From an uncultured bacterium (lineage in GTDB: Bacteria > Verrucomicrobiota > Kiritimatiellia > CAIKKV01 > CAIYGI01): a stretch of 57,773 bases of DNA. The notes beneath the pieces were generated by a model, which was given only the letters and a program-made list of their open reading frames with translations, made no database searches and had not been told where the DNA came from. Below are positions 7,353 through 25,440 of the stretch, in pieces. The stretch covers positions 1 to 57,773 of the forward strand of contig CAIYGI010000186.1 in the NCBI GenBank assembly GCA_903925685.1, in the 5' to 3' direction. The translations under genes and the position numbers were made by a program. Each line of letters opens with the position of its first letter. Position 1 is the stretch's first letter.

Positions 7353-7493
7353 CTCCTCTCGCGGTAAGGCAAGACCTTGAATTGTTTGTGCAGGCGGTTC
7401 TAGCATATCGCCATGCCCCGCCAATTTACGCGTCATCTTGATTCGCGTCAAGAACACAACAGGACGAGGGAAACTACGCCTTCACCGGCGCGG

Positions 7494-8333
7494 CTACGGA
7501 ATGAAGGACGACAAATTCGAGGGCAGCGGATGGGTTTCGGAGAGTATGGTTGTCAACACGCTGGTGGCGAGGGCGAAACTGGCGGCGAAAGCCAGCAGCA
7601 CCGGCCAGCGCACGCGGGCGCCCTGGACAGCGCGCCCCAGCGTCATGAGCAGCCAGGCGAATGAGAATGATGCCGCCGCGAGCAGTGCGCGCATGTCGCA
7701 GGGCAGCGCATAATGCCAGACGAATACCGAGCGGTCCCATGGCAAATCCGGCCGGCGATTCTTTTGCGCGCCGCTGTATGCCGCCAGCAGATTGCGCCGG
7801 ATGTCGGGGGCCGCGCCTTCGTAACGTTCGGCGCGCTCCAGCGCGCGGCGGGCTTCGTCAAAGCGCCCGGCTTGCAGCAAGGCCGTGCCGAGGTTGTAAA
7901 AAAGCGTGCCATTTTGAATTCCCGCAGCCGCCAGAGTTTCGTAATGCCGCGCCGCGGCGCTGAACTCGGACGGCGTGCGCGCATGCGCCATGGCGGTATT
8001 GGCTTTGTCCCAGAGGAAACGGCGTTCGTCTTCCGGCAGCGCCGCCGCGCGCCCCGGCATGGCAGGCAGCATTAGCAATAGCAGCAGGGACGGCAGGAGA
8101 AGGCGGGTGAGTGGTGAGTGGTGAGTAGGGAGTGGGGAGTGGTGAGTGGTGAGTAGGGAGTGGTGAGGGGGAGGGCGAAGAGCCACGCCGTCACCGGAGC
8201 GGCTACGAGAATTGCGTTGCACTGCGTCCGACGCCTGACCAGTGAGCGATTTACTGAAACCTGAAACCTGAACCCTGAAACCTGAACCCTGAACACCGAA
8301 CACCGAACACCCCTTCCGCCTGATGGTTCTCAT
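7494..8333 (-). CDS. BatE-like TPR protein with heptamer-array-encoded N-terminal extension
   Basis: TPR segment NGTLFYNLGTALLQAGRFDEARRALERAERYEGAAPDIRRNLLAAY plus TM helices; ATG (8333) overlaps the BatD stop as ATGA. Confidence 0.7.
   Translation of the reverse strand: MRTIRRKGCSVFGVQGSGFRVQVSGFSKSLTGQASDAVQRNSRSRSGDGVALRPPPHHSLLTTHHSPLPTHHSPLTRLLLPSLLLLLMLPAMPGRAAALPEDERRFLWDKANTAMAHARTPSEFSAAARHYETLAAAGIQNGTLFYNLGTALLQAGRFDEARRALERAERYEGAAPDIRRNLLAAYSGAQKNRRPDLPWDRSVFVWHYALPCDMRALLAAASFSFAWLLMTLGRAVQGARVRWPVLLAFAASFALATSVLTTILSETHPLPSNLSSFIP
8106..8167 (+). repeat. Heptamer array (GGTGAGT)n, about 9 units
   Basis: ggtgagt x3, agggagt, ggggagt, ggtgagt x2, agggagt, ggtgag. Confidence 0.95.
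8254..8309 (+). repeat. Heptamer array (CTGAAMC/CTGAACA)n, 8 units
   Basis: ctgaaac ctgaaac ctgaacc ctgaaac ctgaacc ctgaaca ccgaaca ccgaaca. Confidence 0.95.
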
Positions 8334-10246
8334 GTCCCTGCCTCCGTGCGGTTGGCGGCGCACAATACTTTGTATAACCGGTCTCGCGTCACGGAGTCGA
8401 GGGGTTCTGTATCGCCGCCGAAGGAGGCTTCGATATGGCGCTGTAGTTCCCGCGCCACTCCCTCCGCCGCGTCGTTGGACACGCCGCAATGGAGCAAAGC
8501 GTCGCGCGCTTCGGCGGGGGTCAGGCTCGCCGGCGGCAGGTTCCAGCGGTCGGCGAGGAAGGCGCGCAGGACGGCGCAGTATGCGGCGGGCGTGGCGGCG
8601 CCGGTTTGCCTCAGCGCGCGATGGGCGCTGCGCAGCGCGCCGCGGCGGCGGAGGGCGCGCATCCAATCCGGACGGCGCCGGCGCACGAAGCCTGCCAGCA
8701 CGACGATCCCGTAAACGGATGGACCCGCCGCCGCCAGGGCCGCCACCCACGGCGAACCGAGCAGCGGCGCCGATTCCGCACCATGGGGATCGAGCCGCAT
8801 TGCGGTTGGCGACAGGGGCCGGGCGTCGGGCGGTTCGGATGAGCGGATGACTGGATTGGTGGAGGCGACAATCTGCTCGGCCGTGACCTCTGTCGTGCGC
8901 CGGACTTTGATCGGCAGCGGCGCGGTTGTCACGGTGCGATAGGCGCGGTTGCTCGCGTCATAATAACTCACGGCGATGGCCGGCAGTTCATAGCTGCCCG
9001 CCGCGCGCGGGCGGATGGTGTAGCGGTAGGCGCGGGCATCGTCGCGCTTCACGGTCTGCACGCTGTCGCGGTACACCTCGAAACGTTCGACGAGGTTGCT
9101 CTGGAGGTCGAGTCGCGGGATGAGCAGGTTGTGCAACTGAATACCACCGCCCACGGTCAGGGTCAGTTGCAGCGGATCGCCGACATTGCAGGTCTGCGCG
9201 TCTAGCGCGGCCGTGGCGGTCAGGTTGCTGCCGATGGCGCCAATGTAGGAGTCGGGCCGACTATCCTCCGGCGGCGGGATGACGCGGACCGTGACCGCGG
9301 CTCCGACGGCCAGCACGTCCTGGCGTTGAGGATTTGCCGCTTCGGAACCGGCCACGGGTACGGGACCTTTGAAAATCACCGGACCAAAGGTGTAGTCGCC
9401 TTCCTTGAGCGGTTCGTAACGCAGGACGAGTGTGTATTCGGCGTATTCCGCTCCGTCGGCTGCAACCCATTCGCGATCGAGGTGAAACCGGGCCTGGCGC
9501 GGACCGTCGATGTCGAAGGGAATGGGCATCCCCGACTGGACCGTAAAGTTGTTGATCGCAAAACCCGGCTGGCGCGGATCGGACAGCAGGCGGTTGTTGA
9601 GGAAGGCTTTCAGGTCGGGCGTCTTAAGTCCGTCGATGTTCTCGCCGTTCATGTAAGGCACATTCAGCAGCGGCGCGGCCTCGGGGTAGAGCGGGTCCAG
9701 CGCGGCCAGTGCGCCGGTCAACCGGCGGATGCGGATGGCGAGTCGCAGATCGAAGGGTTCGTTTACCAGAACGTCATTGCCCGAGGCGGTCAGTCGCAGT
9801 GTCACCCAGGACTGCTGTTCAATGCCGGTCACGGTGACCGCCGGCGCGCTTTCGCTTAGCACGCGTCCGCCGGCAAGCGTCACCCGCACGGGACCGGGGA
9901 TGAAACGGCCGGCTTGATTGGGCGTCGCCTCATAACGGTAGACGCGCCCGCTGAAGCCGACATGCTGCATGCGGCCATTGATAAAGGTCATTGAATACTG
10001 GCTGACGTCCTGACTTCCAAGCGGACGCAGGACGCAGCCGGTGACCGCGCTCAGGTCGGGAGCGGCGCCGGCGGCGTTTCCGACGCGTACATCCATCAGC
10101 AGCGATTCGCCAATGTAAATCTGGCTGCGATTGACGGTAACCTGGAGCGAGGGCTCGTCGGCGCAAGCGGCAACGGCCACCAAACAGAAAAAAAACGCGG
10201 CGAAAAGCAACGGTTTGCTTCCTGATGCTATGCCGGAATTATGCAT
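8330..10246 (-). CDS. BatD-like protein
   Basis: Signal peptide then PSLQVTVNRSQIYIGESLLMDVRVGNA; TM helix near the C-terminus; operon context with VWA/TPR genes. Confidence 0.8.
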   Translation of the reverse strand: MHNSGIASGSKPLLFAAFFFCLVAVAACADEPSLQVTVNRSQIYIGESLLMDVRVGNAAGAAPDLSAVTGCVLRPLGSQDVSQYSMTFINGRMQHVGFSGRVYRYEATPNQAGRFIPGPVRVTLAGGRVLSESAPAVTVTGIEQQSWVTLRLTASGNDVLVNEPFDLRLAIRIRRLTGALAALDPLYPEAAPLLNVPYMNGENIDGLKTPDLKAFLNNRLLSDPRQPGFAINNFTVQSGMPIPFDIDGPRQARFHLDREWVAADGAEYAEYTLVLRYEPLKEGDYTFGPVIFKGPVPVAGSEAANPQRQDVLAVGAAVTVRVIPPPEDSRPDSYIGAIGSNLTATAALDAQTCNVGDPLQLTLTVGGGIQLHNLLIPRLDLQSNLVERFEVYRDSVQTVKRDDARAYRYTIRPRAAGSYELPAIAVSYYDASNRAYRTVTTAPLPIKVRRTTEVTAEQIVASTNPVIRSSEPPDARPLSPTAMRLDPHGAESAPLLGSPWVAALAAAGPSVYGIVVLAGFVRRRRPDWMRALRRRGALRSAHRALRQTGAATPAAYCAVLRAFLADRWNLPPASLTPAEARDALLHCGVSNDAAEGVARELQRHIEASFGGDTEPLDSVTRDRLYKVLCAANRTEAGT

Positions 10247-10273: not shown

Positions 10274-10300
10274 ACCACGGATATTACAGATTACACTGAT
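10274..10300 (+). repeat. 9-nt-period short repeat (3 units)
   Basis: accacggat attacagat tacactgat, between the batD-like start and the first TA-island ORF. Confidence 0.6.
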
Positions 10301-10845
10301 AAGGGTTCGACTGTCGCCATGTCTTGTATAAAATCCTCTACCTTCAGTTGAAGGTCCGCAACTTGGCAATGCGTGATCGCAATGTACCCGTCCGCGTATG
10401 CCTCAATGTCTGTGAACGCCATACTGGCACATTTGATTAGACTCTCTGCTCTTGGCCCGGCAACCCGTCCCCCGTGATGTGCGATGAGATTGCGGAGGCA
10501 ATTGGCGCTGTTGAACCACCCGGATTCAGGGAATTCAATCGCGTTGACTTCAAGAGAATTCCTGACCCACTCTACATGTGATTTGCCTTTGCGTCTCTCC
10601 ACCTTGCTCGGCAACTTGTCGCAGAGCTTCCCCGAATAGTACTCCCAGAGACCCCAAGCTGCCACGAAGTAGCCTTGCCTGGCGAGCCACGTCGATATCC
10701 GGAAAGGACGAACGGGGTGTTTACAATTGGCGTACCTTGCCAATGCCTGCGTATCCATCGCTTCCGGGTCAACCTTCGTTGCGAGTTCGATATAGTTGTT
10801 CCAGAGCAATTCGAGAGTCTCATATGCTGTGTTCGCAGAATGCAT
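10291..10845 (-). CDS. HEPN-like hypothetical protein
   Basis: SANCLRNLIAHHGG contains an RNxxAH (Rx4H) motif in a helical protein. Confidence 0.4.
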   Translation of the reverse strand: MHSANTAYETLELLWNNYIELATKVDPEAMDTQALARYANCKHPVRPFRISTWLARQGYFVAAWGLWEYYSGKLCDKLPSKVERRKGKSHVEWVRNSLEVNAIEFPESGWFNSANCLRNLIAHHGGRVAGPRAESLIKCASMAFTDIEAYADGYIAITHCQVADLQLKVEDFIQDMATVEPLSV

Positions 10846-10874
10846 CTTCTTGTTCTGGTTCGCAGTTTCCTTTC

Positions 10875-11318
10875 TTAGAAGAACTTAGAGGACTGCAACA
10901 CCAAATTGGTTCCGACAATCCACCCGATTACATCACCTGCAAGATGTGCCTGCTCGATCCAAAGGTCATGCCTTTGATCGTACGATTCCGGTTCACCCTT
11001 TTGCTCAAGAATCCGTTTCACATTACTTCTTCCTGCTTTCACACGGTTGATCCTCATCAATGTATTCTGAACCATGAGATATCCAGGGATGAGGAACATC
11101 AACCACGATGGCGACTGGCCGATCTTGTGGATCAGCCATGATGCAAGAAGTACAGCAGCGCCGATTTTGATGACATCGAGTAGGCAAATGACGAAAGGCG
11201 AGATCCATTTGGCTTTTTTGAATGCGACCGACAGGGATAATGTGATTGGGAAGAAAGGAAGTTCGATGCCTGCGAGGACGACGAACGTGATCACATAGGC
11301 TCCGATTTTGCCGATCAT
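10875..11318 (-). CDS. Hypothetical membrane protein
   Basis: Hydrophobic segments IGAYVITFVVLAGIELPFFPI and LLDVIKIGAAVLLASWLI. Confidence 0.45.
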   Translation of the reverse strand: MIGKIGAYVITFVVLAGIELPFFPITLSLSVAFKKAKWISPFVICLLDVIKIGAAVLLASWLIHKIGQSPSWLMFLIPGYLMVQNTLMRINRVKAGRSNVKRILEQKGEPESYDQRHDLWIEQAHLAGDVIGWIVGTNLVLQSSKFF

Positions 11319-11343
11319 GGTTGTCCTTCTCTTAATGCGAACG

Positions 11344-11847
11344 TTATCGTTGGGGCGGCGGGTTCACCCGATCACCAGCAACGGTTTGGTCGGCCTTTGG
11401 TTTGGTGAGTGATTCATTTGATGCGGGAATCAACGGTAGTACTCGTTCAGGATGGAGTATGCAAATCAGAACATGCCACTCTTCCACCAAACGTCGCCGA
11501 TAAGCGGCCTTGTCCTTCGACTTTGCGAGTTCTCGTTTGCTTTGCTCATATGCTGTCTTCTTGAGTGCCTCAAGAACGCACTCAAAGGCGGGGCTGTTGG
11601 GGCGGTGCCGAAGTATCTCATGGGCCACAACATGTCGACTTGTCGGCGTTGTCTTGTTAAGGGCATTCAGAATCTGGGACAACGCTAGGATTCCAATGCC
11701 GTAATAGCCGCTCTTTGCACACTGTAGGGCCTCCTCAACCGCGAAGTACAGCACGGGATTGTGCTGTAGCACCTTTAAGAATCGACGCGACATCCTTACG
11801 AACAGACAACATTTCACAGTGCCGATGTTTATATAGAGGGTGTCCAT
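11344..11847 (-). CDS. Hypothetical protein
   Basis: Open frame with alternative start MDTLYINIG; SRHVVAHEILRHRPN; no family recognised. Confidence 0.4.
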   Translation of the reverse strand: MDTLYINIGTVKCCLFVRMSRRFLKVLQHNPVLYFAVEEALQCAKSGYYGIGILALSQILNALNKTTPTSRHVVAHEILRHRPNSPAFECVLEALKKTAYEQSKRELAKSKDKAAYRRRLVEEWHVLICILHPERVLPLIPASNESLTKPKADQTVAGDRVNPPPQR

Positions 11848-11942
11848 GAGATGTTCTTTCTTGGAGTGGGCAGCTTTTCTCCCGCCGCCGGCACTCTCAA
11901 GTCTCACGCGCCATGCTCAATTGTCGAACATGGTTTAAACTA

Positions 11943-12224
11943 TTATTGCTTTATCAATGATCGTCCGGCCGCGAATTTGTGCAAAACGCTGGCGATGAAT
12001 GTCTGATATGAAAGCCCTTCCTCGACGGCTTTTGTCTGCAAGGTCTCCAAATCGGCCGATGATATGCGGATATTCACGCGTTTATCCTTCAGCAATGTAT
12101 TTCTAGCGTATTGCTGATGTTTTCCGATCTCTTCTTTCACGTTTTTTACGGAACGCCATTCTCCGCGATTGAGAGCTTCGTCCAAGCCCTTCTCTTCTTC
12201 ATCTAAATAAAGCGTTTTTTTCAT
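11943..12224 (-). CDS. CopG/BrnA-like antitoxin
   Basis: KDKRVNIRISSADLETLQTKAVEEGLSYQTFIASVLHKF ribbon-helix-helix-like; start overlaps the upstream toxin stop. Confidence 0.75.
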   Translation of the reverse strand: MKKTLYLDEEEKGLDEALNRGEWRSVKNVKEEIGKHQQYARNTLLKDKRVNIRISSADLETLQTKAVEEGLSYQTFIASVLHKFAAGRSLIKQ

Positions 12225-12508
12225 GTATCCTCCAAGTATTTCTTTGTCGCTTTTCTGCTGGGCATTATGGTTTTCAAAAACCAGTCATCCCCGTCTTGTA
12301 TAAATGGCACTGCAAACATATAGTTTCTGATTCGGACAAATAGAATCATCTGGCCGTTATGCTTAATCTGATCGGGATGGTCAATAATGTCTATCAAATC
12401 ACCCTGCTCGATATGCAAAACCACCTGCTCAAAACTGATGCCCCGTGTGCGCTTGAGCAATTCGTTCTTATCCGGGTTCCATTTGTACTTGATCATGGGC
12501 GGAAACAT
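12221..12508 (-). CDS. BrnT-like toxin
   Basis: IKYKWNPDKNELLKRTRGISFEQVVLHIEQGDLIDIIDHP pattern; coupled to the RHH antitoxin. Confidence 0.7.
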   Translation of the reverse strand: MFPPMIKYKWNPDKNELLKRTRGISFEQVVLHIEQGDLIDIIDHPDQIKHNGQMILFVRIRNYMFAVPFIQDGDDWFLKTIMPSRKATKKYLEDT

Positions 12509-12517
12509 GAAGGGTTA

Positions 12518-12541
12518 TTATGCAACTTCGCTCCGTTTCAC
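12518..12541 (-). pseudogene. hicA relic (7 codons then stop)
   Basis: GTG AAA CGG AGC GAA GTT GCA TAA matches the start of intact hicA (GTG AAA CGG AAC GAA CTG TTG) at the same GTGA overlap with hicB. Confidence 0.7.
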
Positions 12542-12729
12542 CCGATGGCCACCAATTCCTGCATGGCGTCCTCGCGCCGGTCTTCAAGAATCAGATCAAC
12601 GGCCGCGGACTGGCTCTTCAAGCACTCCGCCTTTGTTCGGCCCTGTCCGTCAGCGCCTGGGATTTCAGGGCAATAAGCGACAAACCACTTTTCATCACGT
12701 TCCACAATGGCCGTAAATTCGTTATGCAT
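12538..12729 (-). CDS. Orphan HicB-family antitoxin
   Basis: MHNEFTAIVERDEKWFVAYCPEIPGADGQGRTKAECLKS; near-identical to the second copy at 13956-14171. Confidence 0.85.
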   Translation of the reverse strand: MHNEFTAIVERDEKWFVAYCPEIPGADGQGRTKAECLKSQSAAVDLILEDRREDAMQELVAIG

Positions 12730-12778
12730 ATCCTCACCTCTTTTCCGGCTGCAATATACCACTGTGTTGGATGGGCGC

Positions 12779-13045
12779 TCAATCGTTTTCCCGAGTAACC
12801 GCTAGCGCACTAAACCTCTCGAATTCGAGAGGTTTAAAGCTTGGGTTGCTCAACTTTTCCCAAAGCCCCAAGAATTCGATCGTGCTACGACCACGCATCC
12901 AGTTGTTGATGATGGCAAATGGCTCCTGAGAATCCCGATATTGCGCGATATCCGTCAACGAAATGTAATCCTGGTCGTTCTTGTTGAGGATCGTGATCGC
13001 GATCCCCTGAACTTCGAGAGTGCTTATTTTGATGGCTCTGCTCAT
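12779..13045 (-). pseudogene. KilA-N domain protein, C-terminally truncated
   Basis: DQDYISLTDIAQYRDSQEPFAIINNWMRGRSTIEFLGLWEKLSNPSFKPLEFERF is KilA-N-like; ends soon after. Confidence 0.65.
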
Positions 13046-13680
13046 AGCCCCAAGTCCTTTCTAAAGCCGGCTAGAAAACGCTGCACGTGACCGGTCCGGT
13101 AATGGTTCATCAGCGGGTCGAAGGAATCGGCTTTCAGCTCCGCCAGCAAGTGTTCATCGACACGCAGGGATTCGAGTACTGGAGCGACAGAGTCCCATTT
13201 GCAGTGATGAACATAGACATAGTCGGCCAATGCCTTGAGTGGGTCCGCCATCAGGAAACTTCCGCCGTTTTCAGTCTCGATGCGGCTGACGCCAATGAAA
13301 AATTGGGTCTGTGGCACGCGCGTGAAACTAAAAACTCCCAGCGGGGTGTCGAACGAGCGGGAACGAACCAGCGATGCGCTGGTAATCGCATAGACCGCCT
13401 CGGGGATCCATCCATGGTAAGACAACCCGGACTCCAGGCTGATGTAGCTTGGACCATGGATGCGCTGTGCCAGTTCAAGCGGGTTTACGCTGGAATGGAG
13501 ATAACGCTTATCGAGGCAGTAGAGCCCCCGGCGAATTCTCCAGACCTCTCCTGCGCCGACGGAACGTTTGAGAAGCGCATTAAGACGTGCGCCACTATCA
13601 TTGGTCCAATAGGCGGCCTCCTGCCGCGTAAAGACAGCGCGATTTCCCCTTTCGAGGGCAATTTCGGTCACGGTTTGCAT
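13042..13680 (-). CDS. AbiEi-type antitoxin / transcriptional regulator
   Basis: N-terminal wHTH FTRQEAAYW...LLKRSVGAGEVWRIRRGLYCL and PSYISLESGLSYHGWIPEAVYAITSAS. Confidence 0.75.
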   Translation of the reverse strand: MQTVTEIALERGNRAVFTRQEAAYWTNDSGARLNALLKRSVGAGEVWRIRRGLYCLDKRYLHSSVNPLELAQRIHGPSYISLESGLSYHGWIPEAVYAITSASLVRSRSFDTPLGVFSFTRVPQTQFFIGVSRIETENGGSFLMADPLKALADYVYVHHCKWDSVAPVLESLRVDEHLLAELKADSFDPLMNHYRTGHVQRFLAGFRKDLGL

Positions 13681-13770
13681 TTGCTAGATACTGTCATAAT
13701 ATGACAGTTACATGCAATCGTCTTGCGCGTTGCCAGTCCTATAAATTGACCGGGCGCTGGTTCTGCTCTC

Positions 13771-13959
13771 TCATTTTGGTTCGGGGACTGAAAGACTCCG
13801 GCAAATCTTTGCGGCCAGACGATCTGGTATCTCGGTGTGCCTCGGAACAGCCTCGATCCGACCTGTGTTGGGGCTGGCCCAAAGCGAGTGTGAACCGCCT
13901 TCTCGCTTTAGGTAACACCCATGGCGACGAAGATGCCGCAACAGTTCGTTCCGTTTCAC
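13771..13959 (-). CDS. hicA: HicA-family mRNA interferase toxin
   Basis: ELLRHLRRHGCYLKREGGSHSLWASPNTGRIEAVPRHTEIPDRLAAKICRSL. Confidence 0.9.
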   Translation of the reverse strand: MKRNELLRHLRRHGCYLKREGGSHSLWASPNTGRIEAVPRHTEIPDRLAAKICRSLSVPEPK

Positions 13960-14171
13960 CCTACGGCCACCAATTCCTGCATGGCATTCGCCGGAAGACC
14001 GCGCAGGGCGTCCTCGCGCCGGTCTTCAAGAATCAGATCGACAGCCGCTGACAGGCTCTTCAAGCACTCCGCCTTCGTTCGACCCTGTCCGTTAGCGCCA
14101 GGGATTTCCGGGCAATAAGCGACAAACCACTTTTCATCGCGTTCCACGATGGCCGTAAACTCGTTATGCAT
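13956..14171 (-). CDS. hicB: HicB-family antitoxin
   Basis: FTAIVERDEKWFVAYCPEIPGANGQGRTKAECLKSL; stop overlaps the hicA GTG start. Confidence 0.9.
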   Translation of the reverse strand: MHNEFTAIVERDEKWFVAYCPEIPGANGQGRTKAECLKSLSAAVDLILEDRREDALRGLPANAMQELVAVG

Positions 14172-14229
14172 AACTAACCTCTTTCCTTAGTAATATACCA
14201 CTGTGGCGGATGGAGACTCAATCTCTTTT

Positions 14230-14245
14230 CTGAACACCGAACACC
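14230..14245 (+). repeat. Heptamer motif (CTGAACA/CCGAACA), 2 units
   Basis: ctgaaca ccgaaca cc between hicB and the BatB-C ORF. Confidence 0.75.
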
Positions 14246-14252
14246 TGCGTCA

Positions 14253-17015
14253 TTACCAGTCCCGGCCAACCGCCGGGAGCGGGTTGTAGTTGTTACGGTC
14301 GCGCATTTCGTCCTGATGTTCTTTTTCGCGTTGCTTGGCCTCATCGAGCATCTTTTGAATTTGCTCCGGAGTCATCTCGCCCGGTTTGGGTTGCGGTTTG
14401 GGCTGCGGTTGCGGGTTGTCGGACTTGGGCGGCGGATTGGCGGGAGAGTTGGTTTGCGACTGCTTTTGGTCCTGCTGCTTTTGATCCTTTTGATCTTGTT
14501 GCTTTTGATTCTGGTCTTGAGGCGGGGGTGGGGGCAGCAGTTTGGCGATTTCCGTCAGTAAGTCGCGACTCTTGCGCTCTTGCGGCAGGGCGTTGGACGG
14601 ATCTGTGGATGTCAGTGCGGTGAGCGCCTGGCGCTGTGTATCAACAGCCTCGTCGGCGAGTTTGAGTATCTTGGCCCGAGTTTCGGCGCTGATCAACATG
14701 TTGGTGTTGGGAGCGGCGGCGCTGGCCGGTGCTACTGCCGGACTGCCCGACTGCCCGACTGTTTGACTCGGCTTAGGCGGCGGCGCGGGCAGGCCCTGGG
14801 GCGGGACGGCCTGCGCGAAACGATTGCTGAAAATCTGCGTCAGGTCGATGGTCTCCTGCTGTTCGCCGCGCAGACGCCCGTCCGGCTCGCGCTCCATGTG
14901 CTGCGTGAGCGCGATGGCGTTGGTCTGGCGGCGCAACCCTTCGCGCAAAGCCATCTCGTGCGAGGCGACGCCTTTCCAGAGCCGGTAGATGGCGGCCTCG
15001 CCGTCGGCGGCGCGCTGCGGCGCGTCCGGTTCGAGGTCGCGCAGGCGCGAGGCCGAGGCATCCAGATGATCGCGCACGCTTTCGATATAGGCGGCGATTG
15101 CCTCCGGGCCGGGCATGTTGGTGGCCTTGGGCTGCTGTTTCAGCGCCTCGATCAGTTTGGCCTTGAGCGGCACGATCAAGTCGGATGCCTCGCGTTGTAA
15201 GCGGGCGGCTTCCTCGAGTTGGGCCACGCGGGAGGGAGTAAGGTTGGTGGCCGCCGCGTCGGCAGCGGCTGTGACCTGGCGCTCTTCGGTGAGCAGTTGG
15301 TCGGCAATTTGCGGCGCGGGGGTTTGTCCGTGTTTCTCCATTAGCGCGGCAATGCGCGCCTGTTCACGGGCCTCGGGAAGACGCGCGGCGACCACCGCAA
15401 GATCGGCGCGGGTTTGTCCGGCGTCGGGCGCGGCGCGCAACGCGCGGCGGTAGGCGTCAGCCGCTTCGGCCAGACTGCGGGCGCGCGTCTCGGTGGCGGG
15501 ATTGGTGGCGGAGCTGCTGCGATCGGCGAGCGCGGTCAGCGTGGCGCCCAGGTTGCGCAAACCGGCGGGCGCGGGTTTGTCACCGTGCGACAGGCGCTGC
15601 CGGAAGAGTTCGGCGGCGGGGGCATACTGGCCGGCGTCGAAGAGCGCGCAGCCGGCGTTGTAGAGATAGTCGGCGGACGCTTCGACGGTGGCATTGGACG
15701 CGGCGCGGAGATAGGTGTCCGCCGCGGACTGATAGTTGTGGAGCGCGGCCTGGCGCTGTGCGTCGCGCGCCAGATCGCGACTGCTGACTATGGCGCCGTT
15801 ATGCGCAGATGTAACGCTGGCGGAGGAAATGTTGCTGCTGACGTCGTCAGGCGCCGCTGTGTCATTGGTCTGCGCCTGGAGACTGCCGGCGATGAACAGC
15901 GCGCTGACGGCGAGGCTGGTGAGTGGTGAGTGGTGAGTGGTGAGTGGTGAGTGGGGAGTCGTGAGTGGTGAGTTGTGAGTGGGGAGTGGGGAGTGGGGAG
16001 CGGGGGGGGCGGCGGGGCGGCGGAGCAGGGGTTGGCCGCGGCTGAGGGCGAGCATGGCGAGCCAGGCGAGTATGGCGGGCAGCAGCAACCACTGGAAGCG
16101 GTCCACGCGGCGCTGGGTGATGGACTCCTGTAAATCGCGCGCCTGCAGGCGGCTCAAATGGTCGCGGTAGAGCGCGCCAAGTTGCACGCGGCTCTGTCCG
16201 ACGGGCACGTAGGCGCCGCCGGTGATTTCGGCGATCTCGCGCAGGGTTTCGTGATTCAGATGGCTGACGACATCCTGGTTGTTGTAGGTCATGGGCGCGG
16301 CGTCCTCGGCGCCGGCGGGGATCACGGCCCCGGCGGTGCTGCCGAGACCAACGGTGAAGACCACCACGCCCTTTTCGCGGGCGCGCTGGGCGGCATCCTT
16401 GGAACGTCCGGCCAGATCCTCGCCGTCGGAAACCAGCACCACCGCCCGGTGCGCGCCTTCGGTCGCGTCGAAGGCCTCCACCGCGCGGTCCAGGGCCATG
16501 CCGATGTCGGTTTCTCCCGCGGGCGCCGAGTCAACCCCGGCGTTGTCGAGCATCTGGGAGAAGAAGGCGTAGTCCGTGGTCAGCGGGCAAAGCGTGATGG
16601 CCTTGCCGCGGAAGGCGACCAGCCCGACGCGGTCGCCGTGCAAAATGCGCGCGAGATCCTGCAAATCCGCCTTGGCCCGGCCGAGGCGCGAGGGGTGTAC
16701 ATCCCTCGCCAGCATCGAGCGCGAAACGTCCAGCGCGATAATCAGGTCGCGGCCACGCTGATAAACACGCTCCGGCCGGGCACCCCAGGTAGGCCGCGCG
16801 GCGGCAAGCAGCGCCAGCAGCGCGCCGCTGAGCAACAGCGCCAGTTGGACGGCGAAACGCGCCGTGTCCGTCGGCGGCAGCAGCCGCACCGCCAGGGCCC
16901 CGCTGATAAATCGCGAGGCGGAGCGCGGGCGATGGCGCGCGATCCAGATCCAGATGGCCCCGGAGATGGGAACGATCCAGAGCAGGAAGAGCAGGCTGGG
17001 GTGGAGGAAGGTCAT
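14253..17015 (-). CDS. BatB-BatC fusion (VWA/TM domain, then TPR protein with embedded signal peptide)
   Basis: VWA motif DLIIALDVSRSML; then HSPLPTHNSPLTTPHSPLTTHHSPLT encoded by a heptamer array; then signal-peptide-like LAVSALFIAGSLQAQ and TPRs. Confidence 0.85.
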   Translation of the reverse strand: MTFLHPSLLFLLWIVPISGAIWIWIARHRPRSASRFISGALAVRLLPPTDTARFAVQLALLLSGALLALLAAARPTWGARPERVYQRGRDLIIALDVSRSMLARDVHPSRLGRAKADLQDLARILHGDRVGLVAFRGKAITLCPLTTDYAFFSQMLDNAGVDSAPAGETDIGMALDRAVEAFDATEGAHRAVVLVSDGEDLAGRSKDAAQRAREKGVVVFTVGLGSTAGAVIPAGAEDAAPMTYNNQDVVSHLNHETLREIAEITGGAYVPVGQSRVQLGALYRDHLSRLQARDLQESITQRRVDRFQWLLLPAILAWLAMLALSRGQPLLRRPAAPPAPHSPLPTHNSPLTTPHSPLTTHHSPLTSLAVSALFIAGSLQAQTNDTAAPDDVSSNISSASVTSAHNGAIVSSRDLARDAQRQAALHNYQSAADTYLRAASNATVEASADYLYNAGCALFDAGQYAPAAELFRQRLSHGDKPAPAGLRNLGATLTALADRSSSATNPATETRARSLAEAADAYRRALRAAPDAGQTRADLAVVAARLPEAREQARIAALMEKHGQTPAPQIADQLLTEERQVTAAADAAATNLTPSRVAQLEEAARLQREASDLIVPLKAKLIEALKQQPKATNMPGPEAIAAYIESVRDHLDASASRLRDLEPDAPQRAADGEAAIYRLWKGVASHEMALREGLRRQTNAIALTQHMEREPDGRLRGEQQETIDLTQIFSNRFAQAVPPQGLPAPPPKPSQTVGQSGSPAVAPASAAAPNTNMLISAETRAKILKLADEAVDTQRQALTALTSTDPSNALPQERKSRDLLTEIAKLLPPPPPQDQNQKQQDQKDQKQQDQKQSQTNSPANPPPKSDNPQPQPKPQPKPGEMTPEQIQKMLDEAKQREKEHQDEMRDRNNYNPLPAVGRDW
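15918..16000 (+). repeat. Heptamer array (GGTGAGT)n, about 12 units, inside the BatB-C ORF
   Basis: ggtgagt x5, ggggagt, cgtgagt, ggtgagt, tgtgagt, ggggagt x2, ggggag. Confidence 0.95.
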
Positions 17016-18218: not shown

Positions 18219-19287
18219 CTACACTCCTCCCGGCGGGGTTGGTGTTACGGTTGCCGTTTGAACCGCGACATCGGTCTCGATGTAGGTGCGCGCCGTGGCG
18301 ATCGCATTGTCAATGGCCGGGCGCGTGGGTTTAAAGGCAGCGTACTTCACCAGGTCGGCGGCCTCGAGGAAATCGCAGAGGGGCCCGAAACCTGGAGCAC
18401 GGCTGACGGCTTGCAGAAACTCTTCCGTGGTCTGTTCCCTGGCGCGGATGGCATGCGCGCGTTCGATGTAGACGCGGACAATGCCCGTCAATTCGTAGTA
18501 GAAGTCCTTGACGCGCTGGTGTCCGACCAGATCCCGCGCCAGCAGTTCCTGAAGTTCCCAAAGCGCGCGCTCCTTCGGCGACAGTCTGCGCAGCACTATC
18601 TCGCGATGCCAGCGGCGCAGCAGTCGGTATGCGCCATAGACCAACCCCGCCGCCAGCAGCAACGCGAGCAGCGTCAGCATGATGTTGCGCGGCGAAGGGG
18701 GAATCCAGATCGGGCGGTCGGGCGCCGAGACGCCCGTGGGCAGCGCGCCTGCGATCAGCGGGGCTTCTTCGAAGACCATGGGACGCGTGGCAAGCCAGTC
18801 CGACATGCGCAGGCGGTCCGTCCGGAACCAGGTGACGATCAGCGGCGCCACGCGGTGTTCGGCGGCGGCCAGCGGCGTGAGTTTCACGATCCGCTCCAGT
18901 TCCCGCCGCCCGTCGCGAAGCTGAGGTTCGCTATCGTACGAGCCGTTGATGGTGAAACCGCTGAAGCGGTTTTCCAGGGGCGGCAGGGTGATGTCGAAAT
19001 TGGTTGGCGACGACACGCCGATGCGCAGGATCAGGTCGCGGTCCAGATGCGCCATTCCGGTATCGGCGCGCAGCGTGACCGTTACGCCGTCCGAACTGAC
19101 CGTTTCGGCGCGCGGCTTGTCGGCATCGGCGCTGCTTTTTGCCGTCGTCGAACGCGGCGCGCAGGCAACGCCCAAGGCCGCCAGCAAGGCCAGCGCGAGG
19201 AAACTTCGCAAATGTTTGCGGGTGAGTGAACAATTATTCCGTCCTACCACCTTCCACCTACCACCTTCCACCTGTGATGTATTCATC
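18219..19287 (-). CDS. DUF4381-like membrane protein of the MoxR/Bat cluster; array-encoded N-terminus
   Basis: ATG overlaps the DUF58 stop; MNTSQVEGGRWKVVGRNN encoded by heptamers; lipobox-like LAALLAALGVAC; central TM; PKERALWELQELLARDL. Confidence 0.65.
19244..19273 (+). repeat. Heptamer array (CTTCCAC/CTACCAC)n, about 4 units
   Basis: ctaccac cttccac ctaccac cttccac ct. Confidence 0.95.
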
Positions 19288-20201: not shown

Positions 20202-20229
20202 GGTGGAAGGTTGAGGGTGGAAGGTGGAA
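20202..20229 (+). repeat. Heptamer array (GGTGGAA)n, 4 units; left edge of RM island
   Basis: ggtggaa ggttgag ggtggaa ggtggaa. Confidence 0.95.
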
Positions 20230-20308
20230 GGCTGTTTGGTTTAAGGGTTCAAAGGCGTTCCATGGGGACGATGAGTTTTGTAAGGATTTAGACTGTAGAC
20301 GGCACACT

Positions 20309-21349
20309 TCATTGGTCGCCGTCCCTTTTTCTCTTTATCGTGAACGACTCTTTAGCCGTTTTGAAAGTAATGTCGTCATTACCCCAAGCGAGAGTCAGAG
20401 TGTCCGGCAACTTGTCGTCGAAAGCCGCCATTTGGAGAAGGACCGGACGAAGGTATTTTTCAATGAAGGTGCTCATGCACCTTCCTGCCTTTCCCTCAAT
20501 AACCTTCCATGCATCATCAACGTGGACACCGCCATCGTTAGCCTCAAAAGCCCTCTGTAATTCGGCAAGTCTGGTTGATGGTGTGGGATCAAGGACAATC
20601 AGCACTGGCGTAAGTCCTGCCGCCTTGCACTCGACAGGAAATGAAAGTTCTTCAGCAAAACGACCCTGTCCGCTGGCCGCAATTGTGACGCGCAACTTGA
20701 ATTCGTAAGCGATTTTGGCGTCAACGTCCAGACAGTCGATCTGCCGACCGTCTGCTGTCTGTTGGCCGCTTTCATTAATGCGTTTTACGGGAGAGTTCCT
20801 AGACCCAACCGTTACGCCGCCCATACAAGAAGCCAAAACAGGTTCAAATAGGTAGCCCGTCTCTTGGCCGCTTCTATTGTCAACGTCAAAGACCCATTTG
20901 CGCCACATTAGCCATGTTCCGAGAAGATTTGTCGGCACAATGCCATATTCGAGGAGGCTACGCGGGCCGACCTGATCCATTGTTGGTTTTGGCTGTGTTG
21001 AAAGAATGCGCTGGTATTTGGTGCGTCGCTTGAAAATCTCGCAGAGGTTGCCGAAGTATAGTCGGACATCCGGCTCCTTTCCGATAAGTTGGTCAAGTTC
21101 TGTCAAAAGTTCGTCCGTGGTCAAAATCTCCCATTCCTTTGGCAATACTGGTGGAATCTGAATGTCGAAGAATGATGGGATCTGCTTCTTAGGCGTTTTA
21201 AATGCCGCATTACACAATGACAATCCAAGATCGTTGGCCGAAAGATATAGAAGCCATGCGATTTCACTTGCCGACAGGGATACGCGATCGCCGCTTTGTC
21301 CAAGCATCCTGGCTTTGGCGAATTGGCTTTTAAGTTCAGTTGAAATCAT
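20309..21349 (-). CDS. Putative type II restriction endonuclease (PD-(D/E)XK-like)
   Basis: RQIDCLDVDAKIAYEFKLRVTIAASGQGRF resembles a PD-(D/E)XK core; coupled to the C5 methyltransferase. Confidence 0.6.
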   Translation of the reverse strand: MISTELKSQFAKARMLGQSGDRVSLSASEIAWLLYLSANDLGLSLCNAAFKTPKKQIPSFFDIQIPPVLPKEWEILTTDELLTELDQLIGKEPDVRLYFGNLCEIFKRRTKYQRILSTQPKPTMDQVGPRSLLEYGIVPTNLLGTWLMWRKWVFDVDNRSGQETGYLFEPVLASCMGGVTVGSRNSPVKRINESGQQTADGRQIDCLDVDAKIAYEFKLRVTIAASGQGRFAEELSFPVECKAAGLTPVLIVLDPTPSTRLAELQRAFEANDGGVHVDDAWKVIEGKAGRCMSTFIEKYLRPVLLQMAAFDDKLPDTLTLAWGNDDITFKTAKESFTIKRKRDGDQ

Positions 21350-22629
21350 GACAGAACATACCTCGTTGCTTTTTCGAACAATTTGAGTTGAGCTTCTTCA
21401 TCATCGATGAATTCCTTGAGCATTCGCTCGGTTTTTCGTAGCGCCGGGCTCATACCGTTCGATTGCGTTAGCGAAAACTGAAAATGTGGTCGCTTGGGTT
21501 CGTACACAACGCCGAAACCGTATTCCTTCACAATGTGCGCGGCAATGATTTCGGCAAGTAGAGGCGGAACGGCATTCGCTATCTGTTGCAGGCATGAAGC
21601 GGCTGTGCCTGAAAAAATGTAATTGTCCGGAAACGTTTGCAGTCTAGCGCATTCACGCAGCGAGAGCGGACGGTTCTCCGAGGGATGAATGAACTCACGC
21701 ATTGCTGCCCCTGTGATTGTCAGCGCTGGTTCGTCTGCAATCAATCGTTTTATCCCCGAAGGCGCGCCGCCCCTTTTTTCCGTCGGTGTTCCGTCGCACA
21801 CTCGACGATTCGCGCGACGTTTGAAAGAGTCGTGTTGCAGTTCTTCAGGAAGGTCGTTCATGGTCTGGCCTGGTTTAAGCACAGCCATGCGTGCCCGCTG
21901 ATCGTCACCCTGGACGAAGTAAAAGTGTTGCGCGACATCGGTTTGGTCGGATCGTAACCAATTCTGCAAATCGTTTTGCGAAGGGCGAGCATACTTTATT
22001 ACACGCTCGGAATCCGTGGTTGCTGGTGGTAGATCGGAGGTTGCCTCCAGAAATGTCGCTTCGGACTTGCGGAAGATTGCCCCACTGACGTTATGACTAT
22101 GAGGGGGGAACCTGAATATATGACCCAGCCGATTGCCAACCAACACAACCCTTTTTCTTCTCTGGGGGACGCCGTAAGCATGGGCATATATCTTCTCGAG
22201 GGTTACATTGTAACCGAGCGACAACACGGCCTTCACGGTCTCGCAAATGTACTGGCCGTCCCATGCCGTCAATAGTCCTTCAACATTTTCCATGAGGAAC
22301 CATTTTGGGCGCGATGCGTCGAGGATTCGAATGTATTCGGTTAAGAGTTTGTTTCTCTCGTCGTCCCAGAACTTCTGCCCAGCGCTGCTGAACCCCTGGC
22401 ACGGTGGGCCGCCGAGGAGAATGTCGACACTGTTCGGAAGTGTTGCCGGATCAAGTTGCCGAATATCGCCCCGCCAAACGTTCGCGGATGGAAAAAACGT
22501 CCTGTAGGATTGAACGGCGTCAGTGTCAATATCCGTCGAGAAAAGGAGATCGAACCCGGCCCGTTTGAAGCCAAGAGACAAACCGCCCGCACCACAGAAT
22601 AACGCTACTGCTTTAGGTTTCTGCTTCAT
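21346..22629 (-). CDS. DNA (cytosine-5) methyltransferase
   Basis: ALFCGAGGLSLGFKRAGF, GGPPCQGFS, ENVEG, GVPQRRKRVVLVG. Confidence 0.95.
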   Translation of the reverse strand: MKQKPKAVALFCGAGGLSLGFKRAGFDLLFSTDIDTDAVQSYRTFFPSANVWRGDIRQLDPATLPNSVDILLGGPPCQGFSSAGQKFWDDERNKLLTEYIRILDASRPKWFLMENVEGLLTAWDGQYICETVKAVLSLGYNVTLEKIYAHAYGVPQRRKRVVLVGNRLGHIFRFPPHSHNVSGAIFRKSEATFLEATSDLPPATTDSERVIKYARPSQNDLQNWLRSDQTDVAQHFYFVQGDDQRARMAVLKPGQTMNDLPEELQHDSFKRRANRRVCDGTPTEKRGGAPSGIKRLIADEPALTITGAAMREFIHPSENRPLSLRECARLQTFPDNYIFSGTAASCLQQIANAVPPLLAEIIAAHIVKEYGFGVVYEPKRPHFQFSLTQSNGMSPALRKTERMLKEFIDDEEAQLKLFEKATRYVLS

Positions 22630-22637
22630 GCTTCCTG

Positions 22638-23186
22638 TTAGTCCGCCTTCGCGCGTAGCAGCAACTTCGTAACGACCGCGGCTACCGTGTTCTCGTATCC
22701 CGACTTGCCAAGCGCCTTGAGTTCCTCATGAAGCAATTCCGGCGTCCATAACTGCCAATCGTTCTCTGCGAAGATATTTCTGAGTCTACTTTCGTCACCA
22801 TGGATCTTGCCTGCTGCGAGGCAGAGCTTTACGGATGGGTTAGTTGCGCAGAACCCTTGCTTCACCAGTTGCTTTTTGAGTTGCGCAATGAGCACCCGGC
22901 GCAATACCGGTTCCGTAAATAACTTGTATCGCTTTGCCGCTTTCGTATCCGTTCCATCGAAAGCGGACGCATGGACGCCGTAGGAGTCCAAATAGGACTT
23001 GCACTCCACGACTTGCAGTTCGTTAGTCGCACCCTTGTAGGCCACGATGTCCAGTTCCCAGCGAGGTGAAGATGGTCGTTCGATGGCTTTCTTGTCCTTT
23101 GACGTCAACTCCACTCTGACGCTGGTCCGTGTCCAGTAACCCTTGCGCTCGAGAATTTGAGCGATTACCTGTTCAAAGGCGTCCAT
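22638..23186 (-). CDS. Putative PD-(D/E)XK nuclease-like accessory protein of the RM island
   Basis: WELDIVAYKGATNELQVVECKSYLDS fits a D-x(n)-ExK nuclease core. Confidence 0.5.
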   Translation of the reverse strand: MDAFEQVIAQILERKGYWTRTSVRVELTSKDKKAIERPSSPRWELDIVAYKGATNELQVVECKSYLDSYGVHASAFDGTDTKAAKRYKLFTEPVLRRVLIAQLKKQLVKQGFCATNPSVKLCLAAGKIHGDESRLRNIFAENDWQLWTPELLHEELKALGKSGYENTVAAVVTKLLLRAKAD

Positions 23187-23205
23187 TTATTCATCTCCTA
23201 TATCT

Positions 23206-23219
23206 CTCCACCCTCCACC
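23206..23219 (+). repeat. Heptamer array (CTCCACC)2; right edge of RM island
   Basis: ctccacc ctccacc, opposite orientation to the 20202 array. Confidence 0.75.
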
Positions 23220-23222
23220 ATT

Positions 23223-24209
23223 TTACGGCACCGGTATTTCGCCCAGAATGGTGGCGATGATCGCGTCGCTGGTGAGCTCCTCGGCCTCGGCCTCGTAGGT
23301 CAGCAGTACGCGGTGGCGGAGCACGTCGGGGGCGACTTCCTTGACGTCCTGCGGCGTGGTGTAGGCGCGGCCGTTGAGCAGCGCGTGGGCGCGAGCGGCG
23401 AGGTTGAGGTAGATCACCGCGCGCGGCGAACCGCCGTAATGGATGTGCTGGGCCAGTTTGAGGCCGTAATCCGCCGGCTTGCGCGTGGCGCGCACGATGT
23501 CGAGCAGGTAATCGCCGACCTTTTCGTCGCAATAGACCTGTTCCAGGTCCTCGCGCAGTTTAAGCACATCGGCCATCTGCAGCACGGGATGGATGACGAT
23601 TTCCTCCTGCTTGGTGAAGCGCTGCATGATGCGCCGCTCGTCGTCGCGCGAGGGATAGTCCACGCGGCACTTGAGCATAAAGCGGTCGATCTGCGCTTCC
23701 GGCAGCGGGTAGGTGCCCTCCTGTTCGATCGGGTTCTGCGTGGCCATGACGAAGAACGGCGCCGGCAGCGGATAGGTCCGGTCGCTGATGGTGACCTGGC
23801 GTTCCTGCATGGCCTCGAGCAGCGCCGACTGCACCTTGGCCGGGGCGCGGTTGATTTCGTCCGCCAGCAGCAGGTTGGTGAAGACCGGCCCCTGTTTGGG
23901 AGCGAAGGTGCCTTCCTTGGGATTGTAGATCATGGTGCCGATCACGTCCGCCGGCAGCAGATCGGGGGTGAAACTGATGCGCCGGAATTGCAGGCCCAGC
24001 GCCTGCGCGAGGGTCTTGACGGCGGTGGTTTTGGCCAGGCCGGGCACACCTTCGAGCAGGATGTGACCGTTTGTGATCAGCGCAATCAGCATGCGGTCGA
24101 GCAGACGTTCCTGGCCGACCATGACTTTGTTGACCTCCTGTCGCAGGAGGTCGAGTTGCTGCTTGCGGGCGGCAAGCGCCACGGCGGGATTTAAGGGTTC
24201 CGTATTCAT
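23223..24209 (-). CDS. MoxR-family AAA+ ATPase
   Basis: HILLEGVPGLAKTTAVKTLA, DEINRAPAKVQSALLEAMQERQVTI, ATQNPIEQEGTYPLPEAQ. Confidence 0.95.
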   Translation of the reverse strand: MNTEPLNPAVALAARKQQLDLLRQEVNKVMVGQERLLDRMLIALITNGHILLEGVPGLAKTTAVKTLAQALGLQFRRISFTPDLLPADVIGTMIYNPKEGTFAPKQGPVFTNLLLADEINRAPAKVQSALLEAMQERQVTISDRTYPLPAPFFVMATQNPIEQEGTYPLPEAQIDRFMLKCRVDYPSRDDERRIMQRFTKQEEIVIHPVLQMADVLKLREDLEQVYCDEKVGDYLLDIVRATRKPADYGLKLAQHIHYGGSPRAVIYLNLAARAHALLNGRAYTTPQDVKEVAPDVLRHRVLLTYEAEAEELTSDAIIATILGEIPVP

Positions 24210-24215
24210 ATACTC

Positions 24216-24250
24216 CTCACTGTTCACTGTTTACTGTTCACTCTTCGCTC
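24216..24250 (+). repeat. Heptamer array (TTCACTG)n, 5 units
   Basis: ctcactg ttcactg tttactg ttcactc ttcgctc; spans the DUF4340 stop and the moxR start region. Confidence 0.95.
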
Positions 24251-25440
24251 TTAGTGGTGACGGTTGTATTGGTTGATGGCGCTGGTTTGTCTTTTACGAG
24301 TTCCGACGCGGGGGTCAGCATGGCGTCGGCGCTGTAGGCGCTCAGTTTGAAACACCAGGGCGCGAGGCGCGATTGCAGATCGCGCACCTCCGCAGCTGTT
24401 ATATCGCGCGCGGCGCGGTCGGTGGCGGCCCGCGTTTTCGCCGCGGCCAGGGCGGCGGCGTTGGTGCCGGCGGGCGGCGCCGCTTCGGGGGGCGGCGCAT
24501 AGGCGATGGCGACGGTGGCATAGCGTTCGGACGCGCTGGTGACGGTGGCGCCTAGTTGGATCGTGACCGTGCGTCCGTCGGTGCAGTGGGCGGTGAGTAA
24601 AACGGGTTGGTCGAGGCCGGTCACGGAGCCCATAAGTCCGGTCGCGGCCACATCGGCGAATCGTAGTCCGGTCAGCGCGCCGCCGATGCGTCCGATCTTG
24701 TAGTCGTCTGCTTCCTTATTGGTTGCTACATTCGATAGCGTCAAGCCACCTCCCGCTTGGCGGGTTAGTACGACGGGCGCGCGGTTGGGACCGGCAACCT
24801 CCATTTTGGCAATCTGGTCCACGGGAACGTCAATAAAGGTTGGGTCGAGCCAGGTTGCGATCGGACTGGTCAATTCCTCCAGACTGTCCGCCACCAGCAG
24901 CGCCTCGCCATCCTTGCAGGCGACATAGCGGCCGTCGGGATAGCCGCCCAAATCCATGCCGCCTGCCGCGCCGCCGCCGCTGCGCATACGCGGCTTGCCC
25001 AGCCGCAGCGCGGCGATTGTTTTGCCGCCGGCGTCCTGGAACGCGACCTCCGAGGCCACGCGATCGGTTGTTCCTGTGCCGGCGTGTGCGCCGGGAGGCA
25101 GCAGGCCCAGATCGTCCAATTGATCTGGATTTACGCGGACCACTTGCCGGATTTTCATGTCGGTCAATTTTTGCACGGCCTCGCGCAACTTGGCGAAGTC
25201 GGCCGGATAGTTCGCACGTTCCGCAACCACCCACTGTTCGTTAAGCCGCACGAGCGTGGTATTAGTCCCGCCGGGAGCGCTGATCACGATGCGGGCCACC
25301 TGATCGAGCGGCAGCGCTGGCAATACCTTGGTTCCGACGGCGGTCGCGCGTGTACGCGCAGTGGAATGGGAGGTGGCCAGCCAGGCGCCAGCCCCTAGCA
25401 CAAGCGCGGCAATAACAAGTAATAAAAGACGGTTTTTCAT
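24238..25440 (-). CDS. DUF4340-like protein
   Basis: Single N-terminal TM, VLPALPLDQVARIVISAPGGTNTTLVRLNEQWVV; follows the GldG-like gene. Confidence 0.75.
   Translation of the reverse strand: MKNRLLLLVIAALVLGAGAWLATSHSTARTRATAVGTKVLPALPLDQVARIVISAPGGTNTTLVRLNEQWVVAERANYPADFAKLREAVQKLTDMKIRQVVRVNPDQLDDLGLLPPGAHAGTGTTDRVASEVAFQDAGGKTIAALRLGKPRMRSGGGAAGGMDLGGYPDGRYVACKDGEALLVADSLEELTSPIATWLDPTFIDVPVDQIAKMEVAGPNRAPVVLTRQAGGGLTLSNVATNKEADDYKIGRIGGALTGLRFADVAATGLMGSVTGLDQPVLLTAHCTDGRTVTIQLGATVTSASERYATVAIAYAPPPEAAPPAGTNAAALAAAKTRAATDRAARDITAAEVRDLQSRLAPWCFKLSAYSADAMLTPASELVKDKPAPSTNTTVTTKSEE

Follow-up and report, generated by a model that had tools for sequence, protein, structure and literature searches.

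Heptanucleotide arrays probably translated as a disordered N-terminal tail of BatE in an uncultured Kiritimatiellia bacterium

Heptanucleotide repeats have been described in several bacterial groups, including TAACTGA heptamers in Beggiatoaceae, Bacteroidetes and Cyanobacteria (PMC4679880), and GGGAATC in Xanthomonas and GGGGA(T/C)T in Nostoc (PMC4692102). Published copies within open reading frames (ORFs) lie at protein edges, e.g., near the beginning of a corrinoid ABC permease and near the end of MurG, and the idea has been cited that the unit of seven may reflect the contact length of a polymerase (PMC4679880; PMC4692102). The arrays analyzed here resemble these repeats in that the unit is exactly seven, the arrays are mostly intergenic and near gene starts or ends, and their length varies among close relatives. 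Because the published heptamers show a similar bias toward gene edges and have in-ORF copies at protein ends, the arrays at the BatE gene can be regarded as being of a known kind.

The DNA under study is a contig of 57,773 nucleotides from an uncultured bacterium of the class Kiritimatiellia (the window, i.e., that whole stretch). Pfam searches found, in order, AAA_3, DUF58, VWA, BatA (just under the cut-off) and BatD; BatE follows BatD in this MoxR-DUF58-BatA-BatB operon. BatE homologs were present in 28 of the 39 genomes searched, the source genome included. Genes were called with our own codon model and signal peptides by eye. The Bat operon is syntenic in G001, an independent metagenome-assembled genome (MAG) that was the sole congener compared and whose BatE contig matches JANYBP010000077.1. 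The features of the BatD-BatE region, all on the minus strand, are as follows.

8330..10246, minus strand: BatD (Pfam BatD PF13584, 1.1e-19).
8341..8345, minus strand: GGAGG, Shine-Dalgarno-like, within the BatD 3' end, 7 nt 5' of the BatE ATG.
8331..8333, minus strand: start codon (ATG) of BatE, which forms ATGA with the BatD stop TGA (direct sequence).
8254..8311, minus strand: array 1, in-frame heptamers of the GGTTTCAG/GGTTCAGG/GGTGTTCG type (GTTCAGG type) (TRF, period-7 scan, ortholog).
8183..8207, minus strand: REP-like hairpin block, 25 bp, GTAG-tagged, between the arrays, part of RSRSGDGVA.
8106..8167, minus strand: array 2, heptamers of the ACTCACC type, giving HHSLLTTHHSPLPTHHSPLT in translation (TRF).
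8064..8102, minus strand: hydrophobic core LLLPSLLLLLMLP, signal or anchor, then AxA-type GRAAA|LP (translation; helix 74-87 in the low-confidence AF2 model).
7494..8063, minus strand: rest of BatE, i.e., the putative mature TPR domain, two C-terminal hydrophobic helices and the stop (TPR families).
Residues 8-76: predicted tail peptides, e.g., GSGFR and SLTGQASDAVQR (by translation).

Read from ATG 8333, the BatE frame, MRTIRRKGCSVFGVQGSGFRVQVSGFSKSL...HHSLLTTHHSPLPTHHSPLTRLLLPSLLLLLMLP, is stop-free and passes in turn through array 1, a spacer, the REP-like hairpin block, array 2, the hydrophobic core (residues 78-90) and the putative TPR domain (TPR_16, E 4e-07, under the gathering score). 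The coupled start at ATG 8333 that had been proposed was corroborated by the ATGA overlap at 8330-8333 together with GGAGG at a 7-nt spacing in both species. GGAGG is uncommon yet enriched at starts, since by our own gene calls it precedes 10 of 146 ATG starts versus 2 of 147 control positions. Both arrays and the REP-like block are likewise present at BatE in G001; given this matching architecture in an independent MAG of the genus, the arrays are evidently no assembly error. The extension is open in the same frame in both genomes, while each of the other two frames contains stops in both, which argues that it is translated. From the conserved frame, we strongly infer that translation of BatE begins at ATG 8333, is coupled to that of BatD and continues across both arrays. 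The original prediction that the arrays are read without loss of frame held, although the added length, put at about 70 codons, is 76 codons before the core here and 62 in G001. The signal-like segment lies, as had been suggested, deep inside the protein, about 76 residues in.

A search for in-frame ATG, GTG or TTG codons in the stretch from array 2 to the hydrophobic core found none; the first ones 3' of array 2, TTG 8078 and ATG 8072, already fall within the core. This speaks against the suggestion that the arrays forced the use of a new start, and there is no indication of initiation downstream of both arrays. Barring the use of a CTG, at least array 2 has to be translated for a usable signal. 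A start 3' of array 1, at GTG 8186 or at the non-standard CTG 8096, with array 1 as an intergenic spacer after BatD, is an alternative that we consider unlikely, although GTG 8186 may serve as an additional start. GTG 8186 and the VALRPP block that follows are kept in G001, but this codon lacks a strong Shine-Dalgarno sequence, whereas such a sequence precedes ATG 8333, which is also coupled to BatD. Array 1 and the spacer show zero net length change and the same frame in G001, despite a different internal composition, and with initiation at GTG 8186 array 1 would be lost from the protein, but array 2 would remain in it. Since codons in the arrays resemble non-coding sequence, the codon-based caller also favored a downstream start, at 8072; by placing the BatE start in the signal core, codon statistics would miss the true start, which is a warning for gene calling in general.

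Both arrays are imperfect, with 85-90% matches according to TRF, which reported CTGAAAC x5.7 at 8254-8293 and GGTGAGT x8.9 at 8106-8167. An exact search of the genome for three CTGAAAC units returned zero matches, since array 1 is degenerate. In G001, array 2 is shorter by 42 bp, i.e., by six heptamers or 14 residues. The REP-like block occurs in five genome copies at no more than three mismatches, where shuffling leads one to expect none in the window; its predicted hairpin has -15.3 kcal/mol at BatE and -21.6 with the consensus stem. A GTAG tag beside an imperfect palindrome and dispersed copies are features of GTAG-tagged REPs, and the block has both; an Rfam search of the window gave zero matches. 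The copies lie at 8183-8207 and 7474-7498 in the window, the latter covering the BatE stop, and in the stretches L078, L079 and L082. In L078, an ACTCACC-type array comes after the hairpin, as it does in BatE. The AF2 model, built on a two-sequence alignment and of low overall confidence, has pLDDT of about 28-41 over residues 1-70, consistent with a disordered N-terminal tail.

The hydrophobic segment had been described as normally N-terminal, which was contradicted by the comparison with relatives. In the genomes of the order (17 in total) that lie outside the genus, BatD and BatE form a single open frame of at least 733 aa wherever the ORF is assessable; in one genome it is cut by the contig end. 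Only this genus has the two genes split, exactly at the array-filled BatD-BatE junction. Because BatD and BatE are fused elsewhere in the order, the segment is not normally N-terminal there: in the fused relatives (L050-L066, L076) it is internal, lying in the linker at a position that matches the BatE core, and often has an AxA-like end. Export by way of an internal segment thus appears normal in the group, and, since these segments often end AxA-like, signal peptidase may cleave each fusion to yield two proteins. By taxonomy, the split is likely to be derived; the BatE protein tree is too weakly resolved to root fusion versus separation, and separate BatE genes are found elsewhere in the class (G018, G019). 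BatB and BatC are in a single open frame in 6/6 relatives in which both were found.

The BatE arrays are one case of a genome-wide heptamer phenomenon and are not peculiar to BatE. In 321 kb of sampled stretches, mostly from this genome and including the window, we found 36 tandem arrays with a period of 7, compared to 0-4 for each of the periods 4-6 and 8-12; such arrays are therefore not due to chance. The density is equal in G001 and the source genome, about 10 per 100 kb, and extrapolating from this value the genus would carry hundreds of short heptamer arrays. Beyond the genus, in small samples of the other order and class genomes, period-7 arrays were found in four f4 genomes only. Although coding calls cover about 81% of the sequence, gene cores hold only 4 of the 36 arrays (binomial p about 4e-19), and arrays within ORFs are mostly at termini or in linkers. 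Two of these are in the same operon.

15917..16005, minus strand: the same ACTCACC array as in BatE, translated in the BatB-BatC linker, after the BatB transmembrane end and just 5' of the hydrophobic segment of BatC (TRF); in G001 it has lengths reduced by 63 bp (9 units).
19243..19273, minus strand: GGTGGAA/GGTGGTA array between the start codon and the lipoprotein-like signal of a DUF4381-like gene (TRF, G001 comparison); region 15 bp shorter in G001.

Further translated arrays occur at the C-terminus of YidD (21 bp difference from G001), within LpxB, in the linker of a lipoprotein, and ahead of the first transmembrane helix in a BPD_transp_1 permease. Array copy number differs between relatives by 42, 63 and 21 bp, all multiples of seven. 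Comparing orthologs in G001, we found that the length changes of in-ORF arrays were divisible by three in 6 of the 6 testable cases (42 bp in BatE array 2, 0 net in array 1 with its spacer, 63 in BatB-BatC, 15 in DUF4381, 21 in YidD, and the lipoprotein linker in frame), versus 2 of 9 intergenic ones. The difference has a Fisher p of about 0.01 for 5 versus 9 arrays, or, calculated by hand, about 0.006 with the sixth; it should be noted that this is a small sample of six in-ORF arrays in one congener, partly with our own gene calls. The MoxR start array at 24217-24252, apparently 5' untranslated in G001, was excluded, and the L101 arrays, without orthologous anchors, stood outside the orthology comparison. 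Arrays at shared gene boundaries may differ greatly in length between the two species.

Between MoxR and DUF58 (window 20221-23232), the operon has a 3.0-kb island that carries a C-5 cytosine methylase, with GGTGGAA-type heptamers at its flanks; the same site in G001 has 136 bp only, bounded by inverted heptamer arrays. An insert of about 4 kb between BatB-BatC and BatD (10291-14253) encodes a BrnT-like toxin that scored under the Pfam cut-off and a protein that weakly matches CopG-type antitoxins, and G001 has about 0.8 kb of different sequence there. In sampled stretches of the source genome and G001, where arrays of related units lie 20-300 bp apart, 10 pairs were inverted versus 1 direct, the random pairs giving 6.4% and 5.7%. 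Examples are the window pair 17032-17058/17138-17168, G001 C106 11951-11974/12069-12092 and L099 17809-17838/18010-18037. Judging from their arrangement, inverted pairs suggest hairpins or element ends.

We consider it likely that the BatE arrays are tolerated, slippage-prone heptamer repeats, filtered by frame and translated as a disordered tail. New arrays and changes in array length would come from replication slippage or from the spread of array seeds, and arrays would persist where harm is small, i.e., between genes, at protein termini and in linkers. In the ancestor, BatD and BatE were probably fused in one gene, with such a tolerant linker, on the cytosolic side, at their junction; this junction would have gained two arrays and the REP-like block, and now holds the overlapping ATGA stop and start. 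The arrays would make up a disordered N-terminal tail, 62-76 residues long, in the cytosol, and the hydrophobic core after it would bring about membrane insertion of BatE, presumably as internal segments do for the fused proteins of relatives. Copy-number changes that break the frame would be removed by selection, so that any surviving length change amounts to a net multiple of three bases. The tail is probably without specific function.

Doubtful, on the other hand, is the idea that the arrays delimit small elements, often as inverted pairs around 30-290 bp, and that these elements settle at stop and start codons and can split fused genes (BatD-BatE), add N-terminal tails before signal segments and take up cargo (the DNA-methylase island). 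That the arrays serve as regulatory or structural elements kept at gene starts, such as RNA hairpins or protein-binding sites, with translation incidental, appears quite improbable: the same boundaries carry different units in the two species (the BatA/BatB-BatC junction) or arrays of very different lengths, and the BatE pair is not inverted, even though arrays concentrate at gene edges and related neighbors elsewhere tend to be inverted. Finally, a phase-variable switch, in which one heptamer more or less would shift the frame by one base and turn BatE, BatB-BatC and DUF4381 reversibly off, is very unlikely: although seven is not a multiple of three, arrays lie directly 3' of start codons and copy number varies between the two species, slippage would be slower in such imperfect arrays, every testable in-ORF array is in frame in both species, and arrays also occur in housekeeping genes, e.g., LpxB, and at intergenic sites genome-wide.

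Under the preferred reading of tolerated repeats, selection apparently keeps an unstable non-triplet repeat within coding sequence in frame, and does so at several genes in a single operon. N-termini that precede signals, and interdomain linkers, would be safe harbors for repeats, and a fused gene pair may be split in this way. Unlike the published heptamers, those described here belong to many unit families in one genome, and several in-ORF arrays of one operon directly precede signal or anchor segments, their copy number changing between two species in a frame-preserving manner. The cyanobacterial STRRs of Calothrix and Nostoc (PMC4692102, PMC2670836) likewise comprise several tandem heptanucleotides per genome; however, they belong to another lineage. 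GTAG-tagged REPs (PMC3733652) are, like the block in BatE, short GTAG-tagged palindromes of 20-40 bp that are dispersed and have known intragenic copies, whereas only the five copies with up to three mismatches were found here. Compared to these systems, the new points are that a run of cases in a single operon precedes signal or anchor segments, and that the changes between species preserve the frame.
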